This document shows, piece after piece, positions 2,719-22,739 of a stretch of 28,989 bases of DNA. The DNA comes from a virus. The stretch spans positions 1 to 28,989 of IMG/VR virus record IMGVR_UViG_3300042402_005664; one strand, given 5' to 3'. The translations under genes and the position numbers were made by a program. A model generated the notes under the pieces. The model had not been told where the DNA came from and searched no databases. It saw only the letters and a program-made list of their open reading frames with translations. Each line of letters begins with the position of its first letter. The first letter of the stretch is position 1.

Positions 2719-4302
2719 TTAGCGCATGATTGATATGAATGGCATGGGTTCTACAATGTTGTCACTGTGATCTTTGAGATGCGTGTCAAGATCAGCATGA
2801 TAGGTTTGCAGCATCAACAACATACGCACTGCCAGCAAGCAGGCCATGACCAAATCATCAGTTTCGCCAGGTTTAGCAGCATAACTGGTTCCGTTGGCTA
2901 CAAATGTTTTGAGCTCAGAAACCAACATCCTGCTGTTGATTTTCATACGTTGAGATTCTATCAAAATTTTCAGTTTGTTGCAGGCCGTTATTTTGCTTTT
3001 GTTGGTGGTATTGAATCCTTTGCGAAACCGGCGCCCTGTGCTGCCCGTCACTGAATTGTCACTCAAAAAATACCCTGGAATGTTTTCTTCGCCGTATTCA
3101 GCTATGCTGATCAGTGCTGCTTCGCCCAGCGTGTTGTTTTCCACTGAGTAGTAGATGCTTTTTTCATCGTTGACCACTGCATGCAGTTCTTTCACAATGT
3201 CTGCCAGTATTTTGACCTGTGTAGGCACATCAGTTTTGTTGTGACGCCATTCGGCAATTTGATCTGTGGTACGAGCATCAAAAACCTGTATGGCAGCAGG
3301 GTCGCCGCCAGTGCCCAGGCTAGGGTCCAGTGCAACCACATACATGCCTTCTTTGACAGGATTCTTGTACCAGCGTACCTGACCTGTTCGGCGTATGGGC
3401 TCGATGCCTTCTAAATCCATGAGACGGATAGGATTGATCAAAGTTTCATCGTTGATAACAAATTCACAGTCCATTTCTCTACGAAAACGTTCTTCGCCCA
3501 GCTGAGCCAATTGTTCTGCGCCCCATTGGTCTCCGCGGTCAGGATGCTCTCGCCAATAGCTTCTAAATGCCTTGAATCCGTTGATGCCCAGCTCTGTGGT
3601 GTTGCCATGTTCATCTGTGGTCTTGTTGGCACCTTTCCACAGAAACGCAAACTGATCTTCATCAGAGTTGGGAGTAGATGTGATGATTGCTTTACCACCA
3701 GTGGCCAGTGTAGGCGATATGGAGGTCCAAAATTCTTTGGCAATGGTGGGTCTCACAAACGCAAACTCGTCAGCATACAGCAGCGAAATACTCATACCTC
3801 GACCAGTGGTCTCGGTGGTGGTCTGGCTCACAATACGTGACCCGTTTTCAAATTCCAGGCTGCCTTTGTTGTAACTGGTGGCACCAGCTCTGATATGATT
3901 TGGGCACAGTTCATAGGCATAGCGTATGCGTTGCATGATCTCTTGGGCACCAGTGTATTTGTGTGCAGCAATGAGGATGGTAGAATCTGGCACAAACATT
4001 GCGTACCACAGCAAGTAGCCAGCGGCCGAAGTTGACTTGCCAGTTTGTCGCGGCATCAACGATATTGAGTATCTGTAGTTGTGATAGGTGGCAATCAGTC
4101 TCTTTTGATAGTCAAAAGGATGATACAGCATCTTGCCGCGGGTGGGATGCTGTATGTAGAAAAAATGATCCATGAAATACAAAGGACCATTGACTGGGTC
4201 TGCACATAGAGCAAATTCAGTGAGCTCTTGCTCGCTGTATACTTCTCTGCGGTGCGGCGCTTTGACCAGTACAGTTTCAAGATTGTTTTTGGGACCAATC
4301 AT
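2719..4302 (-). CDS. 17: Terminase large subunit (gp17-type packaging ATPase/nuclease)
   Basis: This 527-aa protein is the DNA-packaging motor of T4-like phages: an N-terminal ATPase that drives DNA into the prohead and a C-terminal RNase H-like nuclease that cuts concatemers. Walker A is MPRQTGKST (83-91) and Walker B with catalytic Glu is LLYADEF (174-180). The nuclease acidic residues appear as ALDPSLGTGGD (D326), SVENN (E388) and ETDDLVMA (D482/D483). T4 gp17 has 610 residues; this one is shorter but has all core motifs. Its start overlaps the end of the SGNH gene by 26 bp, so the two are cotranscribed and probably translationally coupled. The small subunit gp16 is about 10 kb upstream in the same strand block rather than adjacent as in T4. 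Confidence 0.96.
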   Translation of the reverse strand: MIGPKNNLETVLVKAPHRREVYSEQELTEFALCADPVNGPLYFMDHFFYIQHPTRGKMLYHPFDYQKRLIATYHNYRYSISLMPRQTGKSTSAAGYLLWYAMFVPDSTILIAAHKYTGAQEIMQRIRYAYELCPNHIRAGATSYNKGSLEFENGSRIVSQTTTETTGRGMSISLLYADEFAFVRPTIAKEFWTSISPTLATGGKAIITSTPNSDEDQFAFLWKGANKTTDEHGNTTELGINGFKAFRSYWREHPDRGDQWGAEQLAQLGEERFRREMDCEFVINDETLINPIRLMDLEGIEPIRRTGQVRWYKNPVKEGMYVVALDPSLGTGGDPAAIQVFDARTTDQIAEWRHNKTDVPTQVKILADIVKELHAVVNDEKSIYYSVENNTLGEAALISIAEYGEENIPGYFLSDNSVTGSTGRRFRKGFNTTNKSKITACNKLKILIESQRMKINSRMLVSELKTFVANGTSYAAKPGETDDLVMACLLAVRMLLMLQTYHADLDTHLKDHSDNIVEPMPFISIMR

Positions 4303-5032
4303 ATACCATTCGATTCGCTAGTGCAATATGACCTTCAGGGCCGCAGTGCATGCGGTCCCGTGCATAACCAATTTGTTCTCGGCTGTGAGCCATGTGATCA
4401 AACGTGTCATAGATAAAACAAGGTATTTCAAATTCATCACACATGGCTTTGATCGCTAACTTGTTTTTTTTGGCATTGAGTCTAGAATTTTCGTCTGCGG
4501 TGTGCCAGTGTTTCAAAAAACTATCTACTTCGGTAGCAGATTTTGACTCACTGCTGGGCAAGTATACATTTATGGGAGGATCTCCTGAGGCCAGGATCAA
4601 TTCAAATCGATTGGGCGGTGGCGTCAACATAAACACTGCTCGAGGTCTAAGACGTGGAATCCAATATTCAGCCAACCTAAAACATGTGTCAGCTGAGCTG
4701 CCACCCCAGGCCAAAGTACGTGGCACTAGATTCAACGCTGCGCCCACCAACTGAGGCCATGTGGATTGCAACGGCAATCCTATGCCAACGGTAAAACTAC
4801 AACCCAAGGCTATCATGCAGTCTCGATCATCAAATTCATCACAACGATATCCGTGACTGTTGATTTTGTAAGTTATGGCTCCGGGCTCCAGCCAACCTTG
4901 TTTGCGAAAATATTCCTGGTATTCAGGCACTTGGCACAGCCGTTCAAAACATTCTTTGGTATCAGATGGCAGAAATTCCAAAGTTTGATTGGCATAATTG
5001 ATGCCTGGGTGCCAAGGATCTTTTGATTTCAT
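4277..5032 (-). CDS. SGNH/GDSL-type hydrolase-like protein (251 aa)
   Basis: The sequence carries the SGNH signature blocks: ALGCSFT with Ser79 (block I), WGGSSAD at 109-115 (block II-like Gly), PPNRF with Asn141 (block III) and ARDRMHCGPEGH with Asp226 and His229 (block V, DxxH). Members of this superfamily are esterases, lipases or carbohydrate O-acetyl-esterases. There is no signal peptide or membrane segment, so a cytoplasmic or virion-associated enzyme is expected. The gene overlaps gp17 by 26 bp and follows the oxygenase gene by 10 bp, placing it firmly in the terminase operon. No good Shine-Dalgarno precedes the ATG. The substrate is unknown; removal or transfer of an acyl group on a glycan made by neighbouring genes is inference. 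Confidence 0.7.
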   Translation of the reverse strand: MKSKDPWHPGINYANQTLEFLPSDTKECFERLCQVPEYQEYFRKQGWLEPGAITYKINSHGYRCDEFDDRDCMIALGCSFTVGIGLPLQSTWPQLVGAALNLVPRTLAWGGSSADTCFRLAEYWIPRLRPRAVFMLTPPPNRFELILASGDPPINVYLPSSESKSATEVDSFLKHWHTADENSRLNAKKNKLAIKAMCDEFEIPCFIYDTFDHMAHSREQIGYARDRMHCGPEGHIALANRMVYDWSQKQS

Positions 5033-5042
5033 TTGATTAGTA

Positions 5043-5600
5043 TTAAATCCAAGTGTAAGTACTTAGTCTGTAACTGTCCGCAGGCACAGTGTCAAGCATG
5101 GCATGCCATAACAGTGGGCGATAGCCTGTTGAATCAGCTTGATTTATCATGATGTAGCCAGCATTGATTTGCGCAGGCACTGTGTATCTCAATGAGTTTG
5201 TATCTTTGTACCAATAAAAACTGGTGCCTTGGCCGCGCCAGGTCAGCTGCATGCTGCCTGGCATTTCACCATCAGTGTGCAATAGACACTGGAAGCCAGG
5301 TTCATCTACCCAGAAGGCAGTGTCAGTGTAGCCTTGTATAGGCACGGGCAACTGTGATTGAATAGTGGACCACACAGATTTGAGATAGTCATGCCATTGA
5401 TCAATCCAGGCAATGGCCGTGTGTTTGATTCTTCTACGCCGCCATGACTCTTGACCTTGTTGCGGTTCCCAATCAAGCTCCAGCCACGATTCATTCAGCA
5501 CCAAATCCACAATGGATTGAGGGAAAACATCTGTGATTCTAAACAAATTTGATTCGTGATCAACAGCAGTTATTTGCATAGAAATGCCAACTCCGGCCAT
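5043..5600 (-). CDS. 2OG-Fe(II) oxygenase-like protein (about 180 aa)
   Basis: The C-terminal half looks like a double-stranded beta-helix dioxygenase: an HxD pair in LLHTDGE (H108, D110), a distal His in LLWHAML (H166), and Arg178 in SYRLSTY in the position of the 2-oxoglutarate-binding residue. Such enzymes hydroxylate proteins, nucleotides or sugars using Fe(II), 2-oxoglutarate and oxygen. The gene overlaps the end of the radical SAM gene. Two ATGs are possible (5600 or 5579); each has a GGAG-like element 11 nt upstream, so I cannot choose, and the listed start is the longer one. The superfamily call rests on motif spacing alone, so a non-enzymatic relative is possible. Confidence 0.6.
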   Translation of the reverse strand: MAGVGISMQITAVDHESNLFRITDVFPQSIVDLVLNESWLELDWEPQQGQESWRRRRIKHTAIAWIDQWHDYLKSVWSTIQSQLPVPIQGYTDTAFWVDEPGFQCLLHTDGEMPGSMQLTWRGQGTSFYWYKDTNSLRYTVPAQINAGYIMINQADSTGYRPLLWHAMLDTVPADSYRLSTYTWI

Positions 5601-6718
5601 AGGCGCTCAAACTCTCCAGCTTTGTCTGGATGATATATTTTTTCATTGGTTGCAATATGATTTTTAAATGCAATACCTATGTTGGTAAACTTTTGCTCTT
5701 GCAAACGAGATCGATAGTTATTCAATGCTTGATCAAAAAATTGCCGTTCAGCAGCAGTGGCAATATCCATGGCATAGAAACGTTCAATTTCATCAATGGC
5801 TTCTTGGGCCACTCCAGCGCCGTGCAAGAAAGGATCTAGGTATTCAGGCTGAAACAAGTTCTGCCACAGCACTGTGGTCTTGGTGTCCTCAGCAAACTGT
5901 CTAAATTCGCAGATTCTAGTGGCATTGTAGATGTTGTACACTGCATGTATGCCACCCCATTGTCCTTGTGTGGTCATTAGATGTTTGATCTTTGAAAGAT
6001 TTTCTTTGATCAATGTCCAACTGGCACCATGGCGTACATATTCCACACGTTCACCTGTGTTGTCAAAACTCATTGACCAACCAACTTTGGATCTTGTGGC
6101 CAGTTTGCGAAATATTTTGTTTGATTCAAGATCTACATTCAAATTGGTAATCAATGTGACAATGGCTTCTTGGGGTATGACATCCAACAGACGTTCATTC
6201 TCTGGCAGCAACAAGGGTTCACCACCAACCAAGGCCACTTCGTGTATATGCTCGTAGTGCTGTTCAATGAAGTCGCACACTGAATCATAGTAAGGTCTGG
6301 CACCAGATTTGAATGGTATGCCTTTGATGCTGGCCCATTTTGAACTGCATGCTTCACCGCAATAGTTGCAACTCAAATTGCATGTGGTGTTCCAGCGCAC
6401 ATCCACAATCACTGGGTAGTGGTAAAGATCTCCAGCTCGAGCATAGTCAAACCCTGGATTGACGTCATTGTGCCATCGGCGTTCAGAGTCTGCGCCGAAT
6501 CGTTCAGCTCGTACACAGTTAGAACAGTACTCGTGCGGTTGACCTTGTGCCAGGCTTTGGCGAATTTCAGCCATGAGGTCAGAGTTCAGTATTTGCTCAA
6601 TGGTCTGGCTGTTGAGGTTGCCCAACATGTTGGGGTTGCCAGCACAGCAAGTTTTAACATCACCACGTGGATTGATGTGCAATCCACGCCATGGCGCTGC
6701 ACAATAGAAATTGGTCAT
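5570..6718 (-). CDS. Radical SAM protein with N-terminal SPASM/twitch-like cysteines
   Basis: The radical SAM cluster motif is CNLSCNYC (C113, C117, C120), followed by a fourth nearby Cys (C124). A GGEP motif (165-168) contacts S-adenosylmethionine. Before the radical SAM domain there is a second cysteine set (C6, C24, C25, C65, C68) in a context of the type APWRGLHINPRGDVKTCC. This resembles a SPASM/twitch auxiliary-cluster region, here at the N terminus rather than the usual C terminus. Radical SAM enzymes with SPASM-like domains often modify peptides or proteins, and some act on sugars. The gene sits between a putative glycosyltransferase (7-bp gap) and the oxygenase-like gene (overlap), so all are probably coexpressed late. 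The substrate is unknown. Confidence 0.85.
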   Translation of the reverse strand: MTNFYCAAPWRGLHINPRGDVKTCCAGNPNMLGNLNSQTIEQILNSDLMAEIRQSLAQGQPHEYCSNCVRAERFGADSERRWHNDVNPGFDYARAGDLYHYPVIVDVRWNTTCNLSCNYCGEACSSKWASIKGIPFKSGARPYYDSVCDFIEQHYEHIHEVALVGGEPLLLPENERLLDVIPQEAIVTLITNLNVDLESNKIFRKLATRSKVGWSMSFDNTGERVEYVRHGASWTLIKENLSKIKHLMTTQGQWGGIHAVYNIYNATRICEFRQFAEDTKTTVLWQNLFQPEYLDPFLHGAGVAQEAIDEIERFYAMDIATAAERQFFDQALNNYRSRLQEQKFTNIGIAFKNHIATNEKIYHPDKAGEFERLWPELAFLCK

Positions 6719-6725
6719 GCAGTAT

Positions 6726-7760
6726 TTAAAGACTTTGCAGCGCCTGATCTAGTTTTGGTTTCCAACGACCAAACCAAGGTCGAGATTGTACCGGGCCTTG
6801 GTTATAGGCCAACCAGTCAAAATTGTGATCAATTTGATGTTGATGTTCACGGCTGTAGTCAAGGGCACTATCGGCGGTGTCAAATTCGTAACAAATGTCA
6901 ATGATGGGCTGAATATCAAATTCTTGAGCATGACTATCAAAAAATCTGGGTTTAAAGCCCAGATCTTCCAATACTCTATAACCAACATCGTGCATGTAAA
7001 CAGAAAAACAGCTCTTGCTCAAAATTCCTTTGGCAGTTTTTTCGCAAATCAAGGTATTGGCATCAACTTCAGTTTCAGTTATGATCACAATGCCTGTGTG
7101 CCAAGCCGGATGATTGATCCCGTAGTCATTGGGAAAGTTGTCAGGATGAGTTTGAATCTGTGTGGGCCATTGCTGTTGAGCTTGATTGAACCAGTCCAAC
7201 TGCAATAAATTGTCAACATCACAATAACTATTGCTCCATAGATTGGTAAAAGCCACACTGTAAACATCACGTTGAGGATCTATTAATTTTTTATCCAGCA
7301 AATGATGCATCAGCCAAACTCTGTGGGCTGCGTTGCGTCGATTTAAACAACCAATACGTCCACTTTTGGGCCTATGCTCAAGGTCTTTGTAGTTGTGCAT
7401 GGCAAACAATGGCATGTACACACACCCAGGCAATTGATCAAAATAGTGCTGCGCTCTAGCACTAAGTATGCAAACTTTTGAGCCAGCAAAAATTGAGGCA
7501 AGCTCGGCTAGTCTTTCTATGATTTCTGTATTAGACATCACAAATGGGTCCCACGATGCATCTACAAACACGTAGGTTGGCATGATGCCCGCGCTGACTA
7601 GCTGCTGACATGCCTTGTAAAAAGTTGACCAGTTGTTGTTTTGCTGCCAGGTAAACGGAGTACGCTGTAGGATTATATTATCACTAGGCAACACGGTTTC
7701 ACCTAGATAAACCAAACCACAAGGACTAAATTGTCCCTGGTCATAATCGTAGCAAGGCAT
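6726..7760 (-). CDS. Putative glycosyltransferase-like protein (344 aa)
   Basis: I do not recognise the N-terminal half. The middle has a block RIGCLNRRNAAHR and the C-terminal part has ITETEV followed by CEKTAKGILSKSCFSVYMHD and LEDLGFKPRFFD. That T-E-x(n)-E-K-T-x-K arrangement followed by a phrase on a position or value and LGF is reminiscent of the nucleotide-sugar-binding end of exostosin/GT10-like glycosyltransferases seen in many aquatic phages. There is no transmembrane segment. The gene lies upstream of the radical SAM gene by 7 bp and downstream of the SNase-like gene by 15 bp. No convincing Shine-Dalgarno precedes the ATG; a short inverted repeat (GTGCT-GAC-AGCAC) lies in that gap. 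The functional call is tentative. Confidence 0.45.
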   Translation of the reverse strand: MPCYDYDQGQFSPCGLVYLGETVLPSDNIILQRTPFTWQQNNNWSTFYKACQQLVSAGIMPTYVFVDASWDPFVMSNTEIIERLAELASIFAGSKVCILSARAQHYFDQLPGCVYMPLFAMHNYKDLEHRPKSGRIGCLNRRNAAHRVWLMHHLLDKKLIDPQRDVYSVAFTNLWSNSYCDVDNLLQLDWFNQAQQQWPTQIQTHPDNFPNDYGINHPAWHTGIVIITETEVDANTLICEKTAKGILSKSCFSVYMHDVGYRVLEDLGFKPRFFDSHAQEFDIQPIIDICYEFDTADSALDYSREHQHQIDHNFDWLAYNQGPVQSRPWFGRWKPKLDQALQSL

Positions 7761-7775
7761 TAATTTCGTGTGCTG

Positions 7776-8207
7776 TCAGCACCAAGACGTTTTGGCTTCG
7801 CCAAAGTATTCTCTAGCAAAGCCATTGGCAATCAAGCCTTGACGCAAGCTACGGCCATCTAGAATGATATCTCCCAGGACACGACCACCAAACTTATCCC
7901 AGCCATAGAGAACAACTTGGCGTTGGCGGCTGGCACCAATTGCACTTTTGGTAAATTCAGTGGCGGCTTGGCCTCGAGCGTTTTCCTGGGGGCACTGTGC
8001 GCGGTGTCCTTTTTCAGGTGTGTCAACGCCAAAGATTCTGACAGCGAGTTCGGGCTTGAGCGGCGCGGGTAGAAAGGGTGCTGCGATAACCACGGTGTCG
8101 CCGTCGTTGATTCTAACAATTTCAGCAGGATAGGTCACACCCTGTGGGGTCTTTTGTGCCATGGCCAGGCATGGAATCAGTAGTAGAGAGAGCAGAAGTT
8201 TTTTCAT
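7776..8207 (-). CDS. Secreted staphylococcal-nuclease-like (SNase) protein
   Basis: This 143-aa protein begins with a typical Sec signal peptide (MKKLLLSLLLIPCLAMAQ, likely cleaved after A17). The SNase/thermonuclease fold follows, with motifs INDGDTV (D36 region), AVRIFGVDTPEKG (R57, D62, E65) and FGGRVLGD (R109). These correspond to the Ca2+-binding acids and the two catalytic arginines plus glutamate of the family. SNases cleave DNA and RNA; export would put it in the periplasm. The last residue is Cys, in KTSWC. It is an unexpected gene between a virion protein and the modification cassette. Possible roles are degradation of DNA from competing phages at the cell surface, nucleotide scavenging, or entry assistance; these are inference. 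Confidence 0.85.
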   Translation of the reverse strand: MKKLLLSLLLIPCLAMAQKTPQGVTYPAEIVRINDGDTVVIAAPFLPAPLKPELAVRIFGVDTPEKGHRAQCPQENARGQAATEFTKSAIGASRQRQVVLYGWDKFGGRVLGDIILDGRSLRQGLIANGFAREYFGEAKTSWC

Positions 8208-8211
8208 AATT

Positions 8212-9789
8212 TTAGTTAGTTAGTTCTTCCCAGCCCAGTTTCCAAAGCAGGTCAGCATTGGCGCTGGTGTAGGCCACTGCTAGAGTCAAAGTGCTGGGTG
8301 TTCCAGCCGCTGTTCTCCATAGTTGCAGACGACGCTTGATGTCTTCGCTGATTTCTACTTCGTCGCGGCTGCTGGACAAGCCAGCATAGACCACAGTACC
8401 ATCAGTGATAACATTGCTGTGTATAGCGGTTTGAACAACTGATCCAACCACATTGCTAAAACTGGCAGTAAAGGTAGCATTTTCAATCAGTTGGAACTGC
8501 CCATATCTTACATCCAGTGACAAAATATCCAGTTGAGACGGTAAGACCACTGCGTCAGGATAGGCTGGATTTAGTCGGATACTGCATAGGGCTGTAACAG
8601 TGTTGGCCGAACTTACTCGTGTTGCAACAGTGTTGTTGGTGACATAGCCAAGTTTGGTAGAGGGTGCAAATCCGCCTTCACTTATCACAGTGCTACAAAT
8701 CTGTTTCATGGTGCTGGCACCTGAGGTAGCACCGGTATTGGTTATTTCATAGCGTGGATTCAGTGTGGCAGTGGTCATGTACACCGTGGTGTTGCCAGGT
8801 TGATTGGCATGTTGGAATGTATGACACACAATGAACTGACCGTTGATCACAAAGCCTGTTCGCACATTGCCCACACCCAACCACTCAACATCACACCAAA
8901 AAATCTGTGTCAATGTGGGATCAAGCGTGATTCCAGATACCCCAGCACCGTTGAGTTGATCTCCGTTCCATGAGGCCTGCGGAATTCTTTCTTCAACAAT
9001 GCTACCTGTTACACTGCTGCGAATCACAAGATTCAAGACAGTGCCCACTGCTTCAAAATAAATGCCGTTGTCGGCTGTGAAATAGCCTACACGCTGTGTT
9101 AGATTTGCTTTGAGTGTGGCCATGGCAAAAGTGTTCATGATCAGCAGACTCTTGCCGGGCTGATAGGCTTGAACTGTTTTGCTTTGTCTGATCACACTAC
9201 TACCACTGGTCGCAGATACATTTAGATTGAATGAACTTTCATTGGCCACATACACCACATTGCCGCCTGTGGCTGTGATGTTTGAAAATTGATCACCGTC
9301 TATGTAACGATTTTGACTGTCAAACAGGGTAAAAGGATTGCTTACACGCAGTCGACCAAATGCATCAAGATTAGTGCCGCCGATAGTTGTGGCAACATTA
9401 CCACCAGTGATCGTAGCATTTACATTTCCGTCTACAGTCAAACTGCCTCCGCCGTCAACCACTGTGACACTGGCGGTGATACCTGCTATGTTTCCTGTGA
9501 TGCCAACATTGCCTGCTGTAATAGACACATTGGCGTTGCCAGTAACTACCCAAGGATTTGTGCCTTGGAACACTGTGACGTTGCCTGATTGAACAGTTAC
9601 TGGCAGTGAGTTGCCACTGATGTTGACATTGCCCAAACTGCCAATGGCCACATTTCCCACTGATACATTACCAACAAGCACAGCGTTGGTACGAACAAAA
9701 ACGTTGCCTGTGGCTTCGTCAAGCTCTAGTGCTTGGTTGATGTTGCGTAGATACCACGGTGCTACCTCTGTTGGTTCTGGTACGGCCAT
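8212..9789 (-). CDS. Virion structural protein with GN-rich beta-repeat N terminus (525 aa)
   Basis: Residues about 36-140 are a run of short valine/glycine/asparagine-rich units (GNV, SGN, TGN and similar) that suggest a beta-helical or collagen-like fibrous stalk. This leads into LDAFGRLRVSNPFTLFDSQN (141-160), a sequence type I associate with structural proteins of T4-like aquatic phages. The remainder looks like a beta-rich globular domain. The start ATG overlaps the stop of the preceding gene (TAATG), and the Shine-Dalgarno AAAGGA is inside that gene's last codons. It is probably a fibre, decoration or receptor-binding component, but which one I cannot tell. The repetitive DNA also gives spurious frames on the other strand. 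Confidence 0.7.
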   Translation of the reverse strand: MAVPEPTEVAPWYLRNINQALELDEATGNVFVRTNAVLVGNVSVGNVAIGSLGNVNISGNSLPVTVQSGNVTVFQGTNPWVVTGNANVSITAGNVGITGNIAGITASVTVVDGGGSLTVDGNVNATITGGNVATTIGGTNLDAFGRLRVSNPFTLFDSQNRYIDGDQFSNITATGGNVVYVANESSFNLNVSATSGSSVIRQSKTVQAYQPGKSLLIMNTFAMATLKANLTQRVGYFTADNGIYFEAVGTVLNLVIRSSVTGSIVEERIPQASWNGDQLNGAGVSGITLDPTLTQIFWCDVEWLGVGNVRTGFVINGQFIVCHTFQHANQPGNTTVYMTTATLNPRYEITNTGATSGASTMKQICSTVISEGGFAPSTKLGYVTNNTVATRVSSANTVTALCSIRLNPAYPDAVVLPSQLDILSLDVRYGQFQLIENATFTASFSNVVGSVVQTAIHSNVITDGTVVYAGLSSSRDEVEISEDIKRRLQLWRTAAGTPSTLTLAVAYTSANADLLWKLGWEELTN

Positions 9790-10181
9790 TATCGTGGGTA
9801 TCCTTTGAATGCTATAACGGGGCTGGCCGTGCCAGTGGCAGGAGGTTCTTTGCTGTCAGCGGTAGAAACCAATTTTTTACCACCAGGTGTGCGAGTCATT
9901 TTCAATGCCAAGTCTATCACTGCATCAACATTGGAATCAAAGCCTGATATCACGCCGTGCTCGCCAAATGCAGTTTCTGGCTGCCAGTCAATGATATCTT
10001 TGTCCAGGATCTGTTGATCTTTGCCTAGGTCACTGCGAGCACGAGCCATGGCCACGCCAAATCTGTAGTTGCGATACGGGTCTGATGCACTGAGCCCTGG
10101 CATGATATAAGTGTAACGCATGGGCTCAGCTATCTCTGGTGGCAGCTCGCGTTGTTCTGCAACAAATTCACGAGCTCTCAT
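9789..10181 (-). CDS. Small protein with capsid-targeting-like N terminus (130 aa)
   Basis: Function unknown. It begins MRAREFVAEQRE, close to the T4 internal-protein capsid targeting sequence (MKTYQEFIAE) with a candidate V-A-E|Q protease site. It ends SPVIAFKGYPR, nearly the same as the end of the next gene upstream. The middle is unrelated to that neighbour and contains a conserved-looking stretch GVISGFDSNVDAVIDLALKM. The start ATG overlaps the stop of the 124-aa gene (ATGA), with AAAGGA 8 nt upstream. Packaging inside the head with N-terminal processing is inference from the motif. Confidence 0.7.
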   Translation of the reverse strand: MRAREFVAEQRELPPEIAEPMRYTYIMPGLSASDPYRNYRFGVAMARARSDLGKDQQILDKDIIDWQPETAFGEHGVISGFDSNVDAVIDLALKMTRTPGGKKLVSTADSKEPPATGTASPVIAFKGYPR

Positions 10182-10552
10182 CTGGGATATCCTTTGAAAG
10201 CTCGCATAGGGCTGCTAACATTTACCGCAGGATGTTCTTGACTGCGCATGTCTCCGCTGTTGAGGTCATGATGTTTGCTGCCCACCGCTTTGTAAGCCAG
10301 TTTCAACATGTCAGCTTCTTGCTGGGTGTAAGGAGCAGCAACGTCGTGCCGGCCGGCCCAGCTTTCGCCGTCAATTTCATTGGTAAATGTTTGTCCGTCA
10401 TTGCTGGCCACAGCCATCATGATACGGTTTAGTTCATAGATACGATCAGCAAACTGCCCGTCACGAAATTTGTGTAGGCCGCGGGTAGCATAGCGCAACC
10501 TGGTACTGATGTCGCCTACTTTTTTCTCAGCAAGAAATTCGCGGGCTCGCAC
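10178..10552 (-). CDS. Small protein with capsid-targeting-like N terminus (124 aa), GTG start
   Basis: Function unknown. Translation most likely starts at GTG 10552-10550, giving MRAREFLAEKKVGD. A strong GGAGGT Shine-Dalgarno lies 8 nt upstream, inside the last codons of the 97-aa gene. The N terminus matches the T4 capsid-targeting pattern with a candidate L-A-E|K protease site. The C terminus is SPMRAFKGYPR, shared with the following gene, while the middle (a helical region with ELNRIMMAVASNDG and QQEADMLKLAYKAVG) is different. This pairing of shared ends and different cores suggests modular cargo proteins. Confidence 0.7.
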   Translation of the reverse strand: MRAREFLAEKKVGDISTRLRYATRGLHKFRDGQFADRIYELNRIMMAVASNDGQTFTNEIDGESWAGRHDVAAPYTQQEADMLKLAYKAVGSKHHDLNSGDMRSQEHPAVNVSSPMRAFKGYPR

Positions 10553-14261: not shown

Positions 14262-14268
14262 TATTTAT
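14262..14268 (-). promoter_or_regulatory. Late promoter motif ATAAATA upstream of the 202-aa gene
   Basis: The minus strand reads ATAAATA, overlapping the TAA stop of gp16 and lying 17 nt before the ATG at 14244. A short leader with the Shine-Dalgarno AGGAA follows. It would let the internal-protein cluster be transcribed independently of the tail genes upstream. Confidence 0.5.
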
Positions 14269-14750
14269 TCATTTTGCGTTTTTTGATTCTTACCCAGAAT
14301 ACGCTCCAACAGTTCGTTGCGACTGAGCACATGCCCAGTGCCTTGTTGTGGTGTGGCTGCATCCGGAGGTTGTTGTTGATCCAGTCTGGCTTTTTTCAGC
14401 TGAAGGTCAATCATTTTGAGTTTTTTGTCTAGTTTGGCTGTTTTGGCAGTGATGGCATGACCCAACATGTTAGACGCCACTGAAAAAATCTCTGATGCAA
14501 AGCGGCTGTCCACTTGCATGCCCAGATCCATGAGATCTCGATAGCTGTCAGTGGCCAAGCCAGCCAACTCATCCATTTCCTGGTCAGTGGCGTCTAGACC
14601 ACGCACAGCCGGCAGAGCTGAATCAATTTTGTCTATGACCTGATCAATGTCTTGAATCAGTGCACGATTTTCAGCCAAATTGGGCACAGCGGCTGCAACT
14701 TCTTGATCAGTAGGTGGCAGGTCAAACAATTCTTCCAGTTTTCGTGTCAT
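14265..14750 (-). CDS. 16: Terminase small subunit (gp16-type)
   Basis: This 161-aa protein is mostly helical. Its central block (about 52-121: DATDQEMDELAGLATDSYRD, then FASEIFSVASNMLGHAITAK and LDKKLKMIDLQLKKARLDQ) matches the pattern of T4-type small terminase subunits, which form rings that recognise DNA and regulate gp17. The disordered N and C termini are also typical. Its ATG overlaps the stop of the homing endonuclease (ATGA), so its translation may be coupled to that gene. In T4, gp16 is next to gp17; here about 10 kb of other genes lie between. Confidence 0.8.
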   Translation of the reverse strand: MTRKLEELFDLPPTDQEVAAAVPNLAENRALIQDIDQVIDKIDSALPAVRGLDATDQEMDELAGLATDSYRDLMDLGMQVDSRFASEIFSVASNMLGHAITAKTAKLDKKLKMIDLQLKKARLDQQQPPDAATPQQGTGHVLSRNELLERILGKNQKTQNE

Positions 14751-15319
14751 GATTTACTTATCTGTTTAATTGTCCAACCTTTGTGATGTGCAAGGTGCCC
14801 ATTTTTTACGCCGCTCATTTTTGTGTAAATGAGATTGTGTGCTTTACATCCCTTCTTCATGCTTTCATACATGTATTCAGTGCCGTCAGGTGATACAAAT
14901 ATAGTAAGTTGACATGGGCCCTTGAGTCCAGTGACTCCTTTGTTCCAAGGCTGGTATCCTTTTTTCTTGATGCGTTCCCATCCTGCTTTCATTGCATCCT
15001 TATGCGTTTGAGGCCTTGATTTTCCTTTGTGCATTCCAACAACACCGCCACCTTCTCCAGTTTCAGGTTTAAGATTAGCCCACTCAGGAGATTCAACAAC
15101 ATTCCAAAGCTGACTGTAGTGTTGTCCAAGCTCTTGAATTAGTTGACGATCAAAAGTTTCGTGCAATATTTCAGTGTCAACTAGATAGCCGTGTTTGCTG
15201 ATGTGGGCAAGCCATTTGATACCTGATCCTTTATACTTGTGTGGATTTCTTTTAGTAAATCCTAGATATTTTAAGTTGGTTATTTTGTGGGTTTTTTTGT
15301 AAAGATAATAAACAGTCAT
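14747..15319 (-). CDS. GIY-YIG-like free-standing homing endonuclease (190 aa)
   Basis: The N terminus YYLYKKTHKITNLKYLGFTK followed by KYKGSGIKWLAHISKHG is a variant GIY-YIG core (YLY and YLG replacing GIY and YIG). The middle (GKSRPQTHKDAMKAGWERIK) resembles NUMOD3-type DNA-binding repeats. The end (SPDGTEYMYESMKKGCKAHN to HHKGWTI) resembles the NUMOD helix-turn-helix region of phage homing endonucleases. It cuts cognate DNA lacking the gene and spreads by recombination. It sits between gp4 and gp16, is visibly more A/T-rich than its neighbours, and its only Shine-Dalgarno candidate (AAGG) is 1 nt from the ATG, so translation is probably weak, as is common for T4 homing genes. Confidence 0.75.
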   Translation of the reverse strand: MTVYYLYKKTHKITNLKYLGFTKRNPHKYKGSGIKWLAHISKHGYLVDTEILHETFDRQLIQELGQHYSQLWNVVESPEWANLKPETGEGGGVVGMHKGKSRPQTHKDAMKAGWERIKKKGYQPWNKGVTGLKGPCQLTIFVSPDGTEYMYESMKKGCKAHNLIYTKMSGVKNGHLAHHKGWTIKQISKS

Positions 15320-21466: not shown

Positions 21467-22120
21467 ATGTCTACATACCAAGGATTCATCTATGAATGGA
21501 CCAACAAACTTAATAACATGAAGTATATAGGAGCACACACCGGGCAAGAGGACGACGGGTACATCGGCGGCGGCAAAAAATTTAGAGATGATTTAAGAAA
21601 ATTTGGGCTCATAAATTTTGAAAGAAAAATTTTAGAGTACATCGAAGATGCATCAAAGATCAAAGACCGAGAGAACTACTATCTTGATCTATTAGATGCT
21701 GCAAACAGCAGTGAGTACTACAACACTGCTAGACGATCATCTGGGCTGAGGACAAAAACCGTGGCTAAACAAACAAAAAGATCGTTGTGTTGTGTTTGTC
21801 ATCAGAGACCCGTGGCTGTTAACTATGTTAAGGATGACATAAAGCATTACCGAACAAAATGCGATGCATGCTTAAAGAAAAAGAAAAACCCGAAACCTTT
21901 TGTACCTAAATGGCAAGCTTCGGGCTACAAAAAGAAAATGACCTGCGACCGTTGTGGATTCAGAGCCAAGCATGTGGCTCAAATCATGGTCTATCACATA
22001 GACGGCAATCTCAACAATGCTGCCGCAAAAAATCTAAAGTCAGTGTGCAGGAACTGCGAAGTTGAACTTACTAAGACTGATTTGCCTTGGCGTCGTGGTG
22101 ATCTTGAACCGGATCTATGA
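21467..22120 (+). CDS. Homing endonuclease: GIY-YIG domain fused to HNH-like zinc-ribbon domain (217 aa)
   Basis: Residues 1-90 form a GIY-YIG nuclease: GFIYEWTNKLNNMKYIG (6-22), then GGGKKFRDDLRKFG and an E in KDREN (about 69). Residues 105-200 hold four cysteine pairs or clusters (C108/C109/C111, C132/C135, C160/C163, C194/C197) and YHIDGNLNNAAAKNLKSVC with H177, an HNH/recombination-endonuclease-VII-like zinc fold. It ends PWRRGDLEPDL. The gene is A/T-rich, oriented against its neighbours, and sits between gp18 and gp1. Its last 50 bp overlap gp1 tail to tail. A mobile, free-standing endonuclease is the best reading; whether both domains are catalytic is unknown. Confidence 0.85.
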   Translation: MSTYQGFIYEWTNKLNNMKYIGAHTGQEDDGYIGGGKKFRDDLRKFGLINFERKILEYIEDASKIKDRENYYLDLLDAANSSEYYNTARRSSGLRTKTVAKQTKRSLCCVCHQRPVAVNYVKDDIKHYRTKCDACLKKKKNPKPFVPKWQASGYKKKMTCDRCGFRAKHVAQIMVYHIDGNLNNAAAKNLKSVCRNCEVELTKTDLPWRRGDLEPDL

Positions 22121-22739
22121 CCAGCTGCTTGACCTGTTGATATAGATGATCCAGTGTAGCATTGTTGTCTAACACTGCATCAAAGTCTGTGCCAACCCAG
22201 GCAGTTTCTGATGCGTGAATGCCCAGCGTTTTGAGTCGCTCGCGACTGATCATCCAACTCATGTTGCCCCTGCCAGCATTGGCATTTGCAGCATCTTGAT
22301 ACCATTCAGGCTCAGGGCCGCGCACTACTCTAATGACTTTGCCTCCGGCTGCTTTGATAGCACGGATTTCATTGGGAAATCTACAATCGCTGATCACCAC
22401 ATCATCTTCACTGTTGCGCAGTTTGTTCTCAAGGCTGGCAATCCAGATATCGTCATGAAAAGATCGACGGCAAACTTCTGTGCCCCATTGCTGCAATATC
22501 CAGCGTGGAGTGATTTCCATACCCAAACGATTACTCCACCAGTCATCACGCACTTCTCTCCATTCACGAGCCTGCTTGGTACGTCCTTCCAGTAGAGTTC
22601 TGTCCCAGCCAAATACTTGGGCCACAGCGTCTTTGAGGCTGTTGGCAAAACTTTCTCGTCTAAAATGATGTAAATTTACAAGATAATCAGCAATAGTATC
22701 TTTGCCTGAACCAATAAATCCGCAGATTCCTATGATCAT
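22071..22739 (-). CDS. 1: Deoxynucleoside monophosphate kinase (gp1-type)
   Basis: The protein begins MIIGICGFIGSGKDTIADYL with Walker A GFIGSGKDT (7-15), the dNMP kinase signature of T4 gp1. Other family features are FANSLKDAVAQVFGWDR, the LQQWGTEVCR block and VVISDCRFPNE, where the last is the nucleotide-binding loop. The enzyme phosphorylates dNMPs to dNDPs to feed phage DNA synthesis; T4 gp1 acts on dTMP, dGMP and hydroxymethyl-dCMP. Its ATG overlaps the stop of dexA (ATGA). The last 16 or so residues are encoded antisense to the homing endonuclease and may be an acquired tail. Confidence 0.9.
   Translation of the reverse strand: MIIGICGFIGSGKDTIADYLVNLHHFRRESFANSLKDAVAQVFGWDRTLLEGRTKQAREWREVRDDWWSNRLGMEITPRWILQQWGTEVCRRSFHDDIWIASLENKLRNSEDDVVISDCRFPNEIRAIKAAGGKVIRVVRGPEPEWYQDAANANAGRGNMSWMISRERLKTLGIHASETAWVGTDFDAVLDNNATLDHLYQQVKQLVIDPVQDHHDAKANQS

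Follow-up and report, generated by a model that had tools for sequence, protein, structure and literature searches.

Gene content of the cassette upstream of TerL

We analysed a viral stretch of 28,989 nucleotides (IMG/VR record IMGVR_UViG_3300042402_005664, positions 1 to 28,989; hereafter, the window), in which four genes for predicted enzymes lie on the minus strand immediately upstream of the gene for the terminase TerL (gp17). According to the list of open reading frames (ORFs), they are transcribed in the order glycosyltransferase (GT), radical S-adenosylmethionine (SAM) enzyme (rSAM1), 2-oxoglutarate (2OG)-Fe(II) oxygenase and SGNH-like hydrolase (Table 1). The ORF coordinates agreed with the original prediction, which had been made from the letters of the window, of four co-directional genes directly before gp17. 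Its spacings were also borne out, namely a 7-bp gap between GT and rSAM1, a 10-bp gap between 2OG and SGNH and a 26-bp overlap between SGNH and TerL. The predicted overlap of rSAM1 with 2OG amounts to 31 bp when measured from the longest ORF and to 10 bp when measured from the ATG at 5579, which is the gene start according to the alignment of the homologues (conserved start MQIT..VD).

Table 1. Features of the window, with the records that hold the distant cluster in the last line
Feature	Position	Strand	Remarks
GT	6726-7760	-	344 aa; GT-B-fold glycosyltransferase; optional; just upstream of rSAM1
rSAM1	5570-6718	-	382 aa; twitch-domain radical SAM enzyme; near-constant member
rSAM1 SPASM/twitch domain, N-terminal	6515-6703	-	residues 6-68
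rSAM1 CxxxCxxC motif, CNLSCNYC	6362-6385	-	residues 112-119
2OG-Fe(II) oxygenase	5043-5579	-	178 aa with the conserved start; 185 aa in the longest ORF, which extends to 5600
SGNH-like hydrolase	4277-5032	-	251 aa
TerL/gp17	2719-4302	-	slot anchor; T4-type; Terminase_6N E 1.9e-15; PHROG terminase E 3.8e-118
SNase-type nuclease	7776-8207	-	apparent signal peptide; Pfam SNase E 3.2e-9; usual upstream border of the cassette
Fibre-like protein	8212-9789	-	GNVSVGNV repeats; upstream of the nuclease
Small paralogues	9789-10181 and 10178-10552	-	FKGYPR-tailed
T4-type late promoter core NATAAATA	14262-14269	-	heads the transcription unit that ends at TerL
Probable GIY-YIG/HNH homing endonuclease gene	14747-15319	-	by eye
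Probable GIY-YIG/HNH homing endonuclease gene	21467-22120	+	by eye
T4 gp1-like dNMP kinase	22071-22739		by eye
Distant radical SAM cluster	records G001-G006, G011, G021-G024, G027		read in L151-L154 and L156

Conservation of the gene order

IMG/VR was scanned twice with rSAM1 and the best 80 of the 242-264 stretches per scan were read, which gave 78 distinct rSAM1 sequences, 76 of them with enough flank to be tested. These records are metagenome contigs and are often fragments. TerL was found downstream of rSAM1 in all 76 testable loci, and the association is thus conserved among metagenomic phages; the possibility raised beforehand that the genes occur independently in related phages did not hold. 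The order was (GT)-rSAM1-(2OG)-(rSAM2)-(SGNH)-TerL, in which brackets mark the optional genes and rSAM2 denotes another SPASM/radical SAM enzyme, approximately 30% identical to rSAM1 and absent from the window. No other order was observed among the 76 loci, and it was invariant over the 31 multi-gene loci. The idea of a fixed four-gene pathway was not borne out, as rSAM1 is near-constant and 2OG, rSAM2, SGNH and GT are all optional. Nothing lies between rSAM1 and TerL in 22 of the 76 loci, in which the two genes abut; SGNH alone was found there in 17, 2OG-rSAM2-SGNH in another 17, 2OG-SGNH, as in the window, in seven, 2OG alone in six and rSAM2-SGNH in five. In the remaining two loci, 2OG-rSAM2-SGNH is accompanied by three further genes, one GT-like, one SGNH-like (the second in the locus) and one of the dehydratase/epimerase family. 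In 11 loci rSAM1 is immediately preceded by GT, which was never encountered where rSAM1 stands alone; 57 loci have a nuclease, SNase or NUC1, as the upstream neighbour. Co-occurrence was non-random in tests that ignore kinship, both for rSAM2 with SGNH (p 1e-6), 2OG with rSAM2 (p 1e-5) and 2OG with SGNH (p 0.008), and for GT with any other optional gene (p 0.03).

As a control, relatives were fetched by TerL instead of rSAM1; of the near ones, those with 2 kb or more of upstream sequence were considered (the truncated contig L253 was left out). rSAM1 was present in 43 of the 53 near relatives, and in 24/24 where TerL was at least 81% identical; it was found in none of the 53 distant relatives. 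In loci lacking rSAM1, TerL is directly preceded by the nuclease gene, or the slot is occupied by an ORF of approximately 90 aa or a lone SGNH; none of 2OG, rSAM2 and GT was seen in the near relatives without rSAM1. SGNH before TerL was also found in more distant phages. The slot contents of the rSAM1-less and distant relatives indicate that the site just before TerL is a cargo slot, which may hold a lone SGNH or nothing, that SGNH is probably its older resident and that rSAM1 was gained in one clade and mostly kept thereafter. This clade is composed of uncultured giant phages of the T4 superfamily. In the distant relative L371, the slot is filled, approximately 55-615 bases upstream of TerL, by another kind of oxygenase-like protein (186 aa), together with a protein of 272 aa.

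Such contents could also be expected if the slot were merely tolerant of insertions and its enzymes shared no pathway, which would account for a lone SGNH, the ORF of approximately 90 aa, the oxygenase-like protein of L371 or nothing at all being found there. The GT of the window would fit as well, because it was exchanged relative to its neighbours (67% identity to the nearest relative, L023, vs. 98% for the neighbours, with synonymous sites saturated). We consider unrelated cargo to be very unlikely, since the order does not vary, the co-occurrence is non-random, 2OG, rSAM2 and GT were not encountered in near relatives devoid of rSAM1 and a distant cluster, which is described below, repeats the same enzyme types.

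Predicted late expression and selection

Of 34 loci, 32 have a T4-type late promoter core, NATAAATA, which matches the consensus, 24-25 bp before p13636, the first gene of the transcription unit; no such core was detected between rSAM1 and TerL. Late co-transcription of the cassette with the terminase, as judged from this consensus, is therefore well supported, and the proposed late expression together with the packaging motor is upheld. When compared with L023, the dN/dS values (nonsynonymous to synonymous substitution rates) were 0.10 for rSAM1, 0.11 for 2OG and 0.15 for SGNH, which indicates purifying selection.

Identity of the enzymes

rSAM1 scored 205.5 bits against NF033640 (NCBIfam, twitch domain-containing radical SAM protein; cut-off 170), and its N-terminal domain matched Pfam SPASM with an E of 9e-12. 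In the alignment, the twitch cysteines Cys5, 23, 64 and 67 of rSAM1 are invariant, and Cys112, 116 and 119 of the CxxxCxxC motif are invariant across both rSAM1 and rSAM2. A radical SAM enzyme with an N-terminal SPASM-like cysteine set, as had been proposed, was thus confirmed. In the PDB, the BtrN auxiliary domain was matched by the rSAM1 alignment profile (E 6e-5); the hidden Markov model (HMM) search gave, in addition, weak hits on peptide maturases. Neither a characterised member of the NF033640 family nor a known substrate was found. The sole bacterial relative of rSAM1 that was found is weak (25% identity) and comes from a metagenome-assembled genome of Bdellovibrionaceae, in which the neighbouring genes are uninformative on the source.

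The SPASM/twitch architecture and the weak peptide-maturase matches would suit a role in peptide maturation, in which rSAM1 would act on a peptide encoded by the phage or on a virion-protein tail, much as SPASM/twitch enzymes mature ribosomally synthesised and post-translationally modified peptides. Two small upstream proteins with invariant FKGY(PR) C-termini would even offer suitable tails. However, the FKGY tails are present in 7/11 rSAM1-less loci and are thus independent of rSAM1, and the GT and dehydratase/epimerase-family genes of the cassette point to sugars, which makes this role rather improbable. The FKGYPR-tailed proteins were accordingly rejected as a dependent substrate of rSAM1. 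They are small paralogues that occur clade-wide, with an N-terminal MRAREF(V/L)AE that is similar to a T4 capsid-targeting sequence and an invariant C-terminal SPxxxFKGYPR.

The original prediction had named, as one ground for its own refutation, the failure of HMMs to support two or more of the enzyme calls. Taken literally, this is what was observed for GT and 2OG, but the predicted structures support both. In the case of GT, no HMM support, including Pfam, and no sequence match in the PDB was obtained, and the AlphaFold model is modest (pLDDT, predicted local distance difference test, 68). Nevertheless, the 50 rows shown by VIA-align for this model were GT-B glycosyltransferases or enzymes closely akin to them, at Z 8.3-9.8, and the GT-B fold, and with it the glycosyltransferase call, is supported by the predicted structure. 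No single GT family, GT10 included, was singled out; alpha-1,3-fucosyltransferase was only one among many structural rows. An EK-containing block is common to GT and other GT-like proteins of these phages. When GT alone served as the query, its peptide patterns proved too specific to pick up any viral relative, and its homologues were taken from the rSAM1 loci.

2OG matched no Pfam/HMM family; its model (pLDDT 94.4) has a double-stranded beta-helix fold and matched solved 2OG oxygenases in Foldseek (best E 7.6e-6). Moreover, H101, D103, H159 and R171, which correspond to the HxD...H iron triad and the 2OG-binding arginine, are invariant in 23 sequences, which is in agreement with the 2OG-Fe(II) oxygenase-like call. 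The SGNH hydrolase call stood in part. S79, G111, D226 and H229 (Ser, Gly and DxxH of blocks I, II and V) are invariant in 17 sequences, and GDSL_2 matched four of these 17 family members (best E 4.8e-7), with a weak match to the protein of the window (E 0.021). Block III, GxND, is missing; most of the 17 sequences have PPxxR there and no conserved Asn. The protein was therefore named SGNH-like and was not filed as an SGNH/GDSL member.

T4-like phages glucosylate their DNA, and the modification of phage bases is known to involve carbamoyltransferases and radical SAM enzymes. Hypermodification of nucleotides or DNA, by which phage bases would be altered against restriction, might thus be considered, particularly as T4 alpha-glucosyltransferase was among the structural matches of GT and a T4 gp1-like deoxynucleoside monophosphate (dNMP) kinase was recognised by eye in the window. 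GT-B folds are, however, all alike; the thymidylate synthase/hydroxymethylase family was absent from six records and late timing suits virion assembly more than replication. We regard a role in DNA modification as highly improbable. In the search for Tet/JBP no control rang, and its outcome carries no weight as an absence.

A distant radical SAM cluster

The records behind the loci reach 364 kb, and six large ones carry 7-16 NF033640 enzymes above the cut-off. At a distance from the cassette, there is a cluster of five or six tandem twitch radical SAM genes together with genes for GT-like and SGNH-like proteins, a carbamoyltransferase that resembles NovN/GdmN/TobZ and a conserved 360-aa protein, and a GATM/StrB1-like amidinotransferase gene adjoins it where the clusters were read. 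The cluster genes are mostly 62-88% identical across five genomes. The cluster was present in 8/8 of the clade records of 300 kb or more that were checked, including G024, which lacks rSAM1 and whose TerL is 69% identical, as well as in G027 (118 kb), also without rSAM1. The cassette can thus be regarded as one late satellite of a broader and older radical SAM capacity.

Relation to known systems

No relative of the four window genes was detectable in cultured phages by tblastn (E 1e-5 for the radical SAM gene, 1e-2 for SGNH, 2OG and GT). The closest cultured relatives by TerL, Pseudomonas phage PA5oct and Sinorhizobium phage Phosso (48-52% identity), carry neither the cassette nor the radical SAM/carbamoyltransferase cluster. 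Phage radical SAM genes are usually reported singly, as auxiliary metabolic genes; here, such a gene is nearly as constant as the terminase in a clade whose genomes hold many of these enzymes. rSAM1 resembles the NF033640 proteins in its score above the cut-off and in its layout of an N-terminal twitch and a radical SAM domain, and is distinguished by being one member that is fixed beside the terminase throughout a phage clade.

It is worth mentioning that the Vibrio phages K566 and KVP40, which are catalogued as T4-like, also carry several genes for twitch radical SAM enzymes in the vicinity of GT genes; against NF033640, K566 has two proteins above the cut-off and one just below it, and KVP40 has two below it. 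These genes do not lie beside the terminase, and in K566 they are found beside PagP and LpxC-like genes. In the K566 record (L157), a region at about 158479-172827 has four genes for radical SAM enzymes of the twitch type interleaved with GT8/GT4-like genes, which makes this phage a possible culturable model. The nearest described system is that of the host-recognition regions of pelagimyophages, which belong to the T4 superfamily and have glycosyltransferases and radical SAM cassettes that their authors consider to be surface-sugar modifiers (PMC7029224). Those regions are hypervariable and contain tail fibre genes, whereas the present cassette is locked in front of TerL, its order is fixed, and its phages have a second conserved cluster at another site. 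Cassettes of radical SAM and GT genes are already known in T4-like phages; neither a terminase-locked cassette of fixed order nor the conserved cluster of five to six enzymes was found described in the literature searched, which covered few subscription papers, and this is in agreement with the earlier statement that no described system of this composition was known.

Further resemblances, at the sequence level only, are to the tailoring of aminoglycosides: the twitch domain is similar to that of BtrN, the amidinotransferase of the cluster to GATM/StrB1 and its carbamoyltransferase to NovN/GdmN/TobZ. The cluster differs from aminoglycoside tailoring by its five or six radical SAM enzymes.

Proposed function of the cassette

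Starting from the folds and motifs, the linkage, order and clade range, the predicted late unit and the purifying selection, we propose tentatively, and with rather less than even confidence, that the cassette performs the late tailoring of a sugar- or cyclitol-like product of the distant cluster, with a virion protein as the more likely acceptor; what we infer is the chemistry, the nature of product and acceptor, and the connection of the cassette to the cluster. A product of this kind is suggested by GT, by the dehydratase/epimerase-family gene of two cassettes and by the resemblances to BtrN, StrB1 and TobZ. It would be made by the separate conserved cluster, and the cassette enzymes would then act on it: rSAM1 might dehydrogenate or epimerise the sugar by radical chemistry, GT would transfer it, 2OG might hydroxylate it and SGNH could trim or transfer an acyl group. 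As acceptor, a cytoplasmic virion protein would be favoured over a lipid-linked host glycan because the late packaging transcript is shared and neither the GtrA flippase (0/7 records; 7/14 control genomes rang) nor the Bac_transf initiating transferase (0 in seven records) was found in the checked genomes.

The main rival is host-envelope remodelling, in which sugars of the lipopolysaccharide or capsule would be modified during infection, blocking superinfection or the readsorption of progeny. This would correspond to the pelagimyophage cassettes, interpreted as O-chain modifiers (PMC7029224), and to K566, in which the four twitch radical SAM genes and their GT8/GT4-like partners lie by PagP and an LpxC-like gene. 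However, GtrA and Bac_transf are absent from the seven records, the cassette is predicted to be co-transcribed late with packaging, and rSAM1 is conserved as strongly as TerL, unlike typical variable host-surface genes; we consider remodelling of the envelope to be unlikely, albeit the most serious competitor. A Gtr-type O-antigen system was rejected on the absence of both families.

Several points weigh against the tailoring of a virion-bound sugar that we propose. Twitch/SPASM radical SAM enzymes act more often on peptides, and the GT model is of modest quality. The fibre-like virion genes share the unit with the cassette, and their glycosylation is only conjectural. Furthermore, G024 and G027 have the distant cluster without rSAM1, and cassette and cluster are therefore separable.

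In a broader and more doubtful version of the proposed tailoring, the whole giant-phage clade might encode a radical-SAM-rich pathway, with carbamoyl-, amidino- and glycosyltransferases, for a new aminoglycoside- or glycan-like decoration, which the cassette would finish in a lineage-specific manner and which would be placed on virions during assembly. Were the product identified, the system would amount to a natural-product-like pathway encoded by a phage, and a substrate class could be given to the NF033640 family. The site just upstream of TerL is a place to look for such enzymes.

Neighbouring genes

The fibre-like protein upstream of the nuclease is a candidate acceptor, and other fibre-like proteins are found in the relatives. 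A late gene for a nuclease that would be exported is noteworthy in itself; in other loci, its place is filled by a secreted-type DNA/RNA endonuclease (PF01223) that is unrelated to SNase. Additionally, the two probable homing endonuclease genes of the window lie within the structural region.

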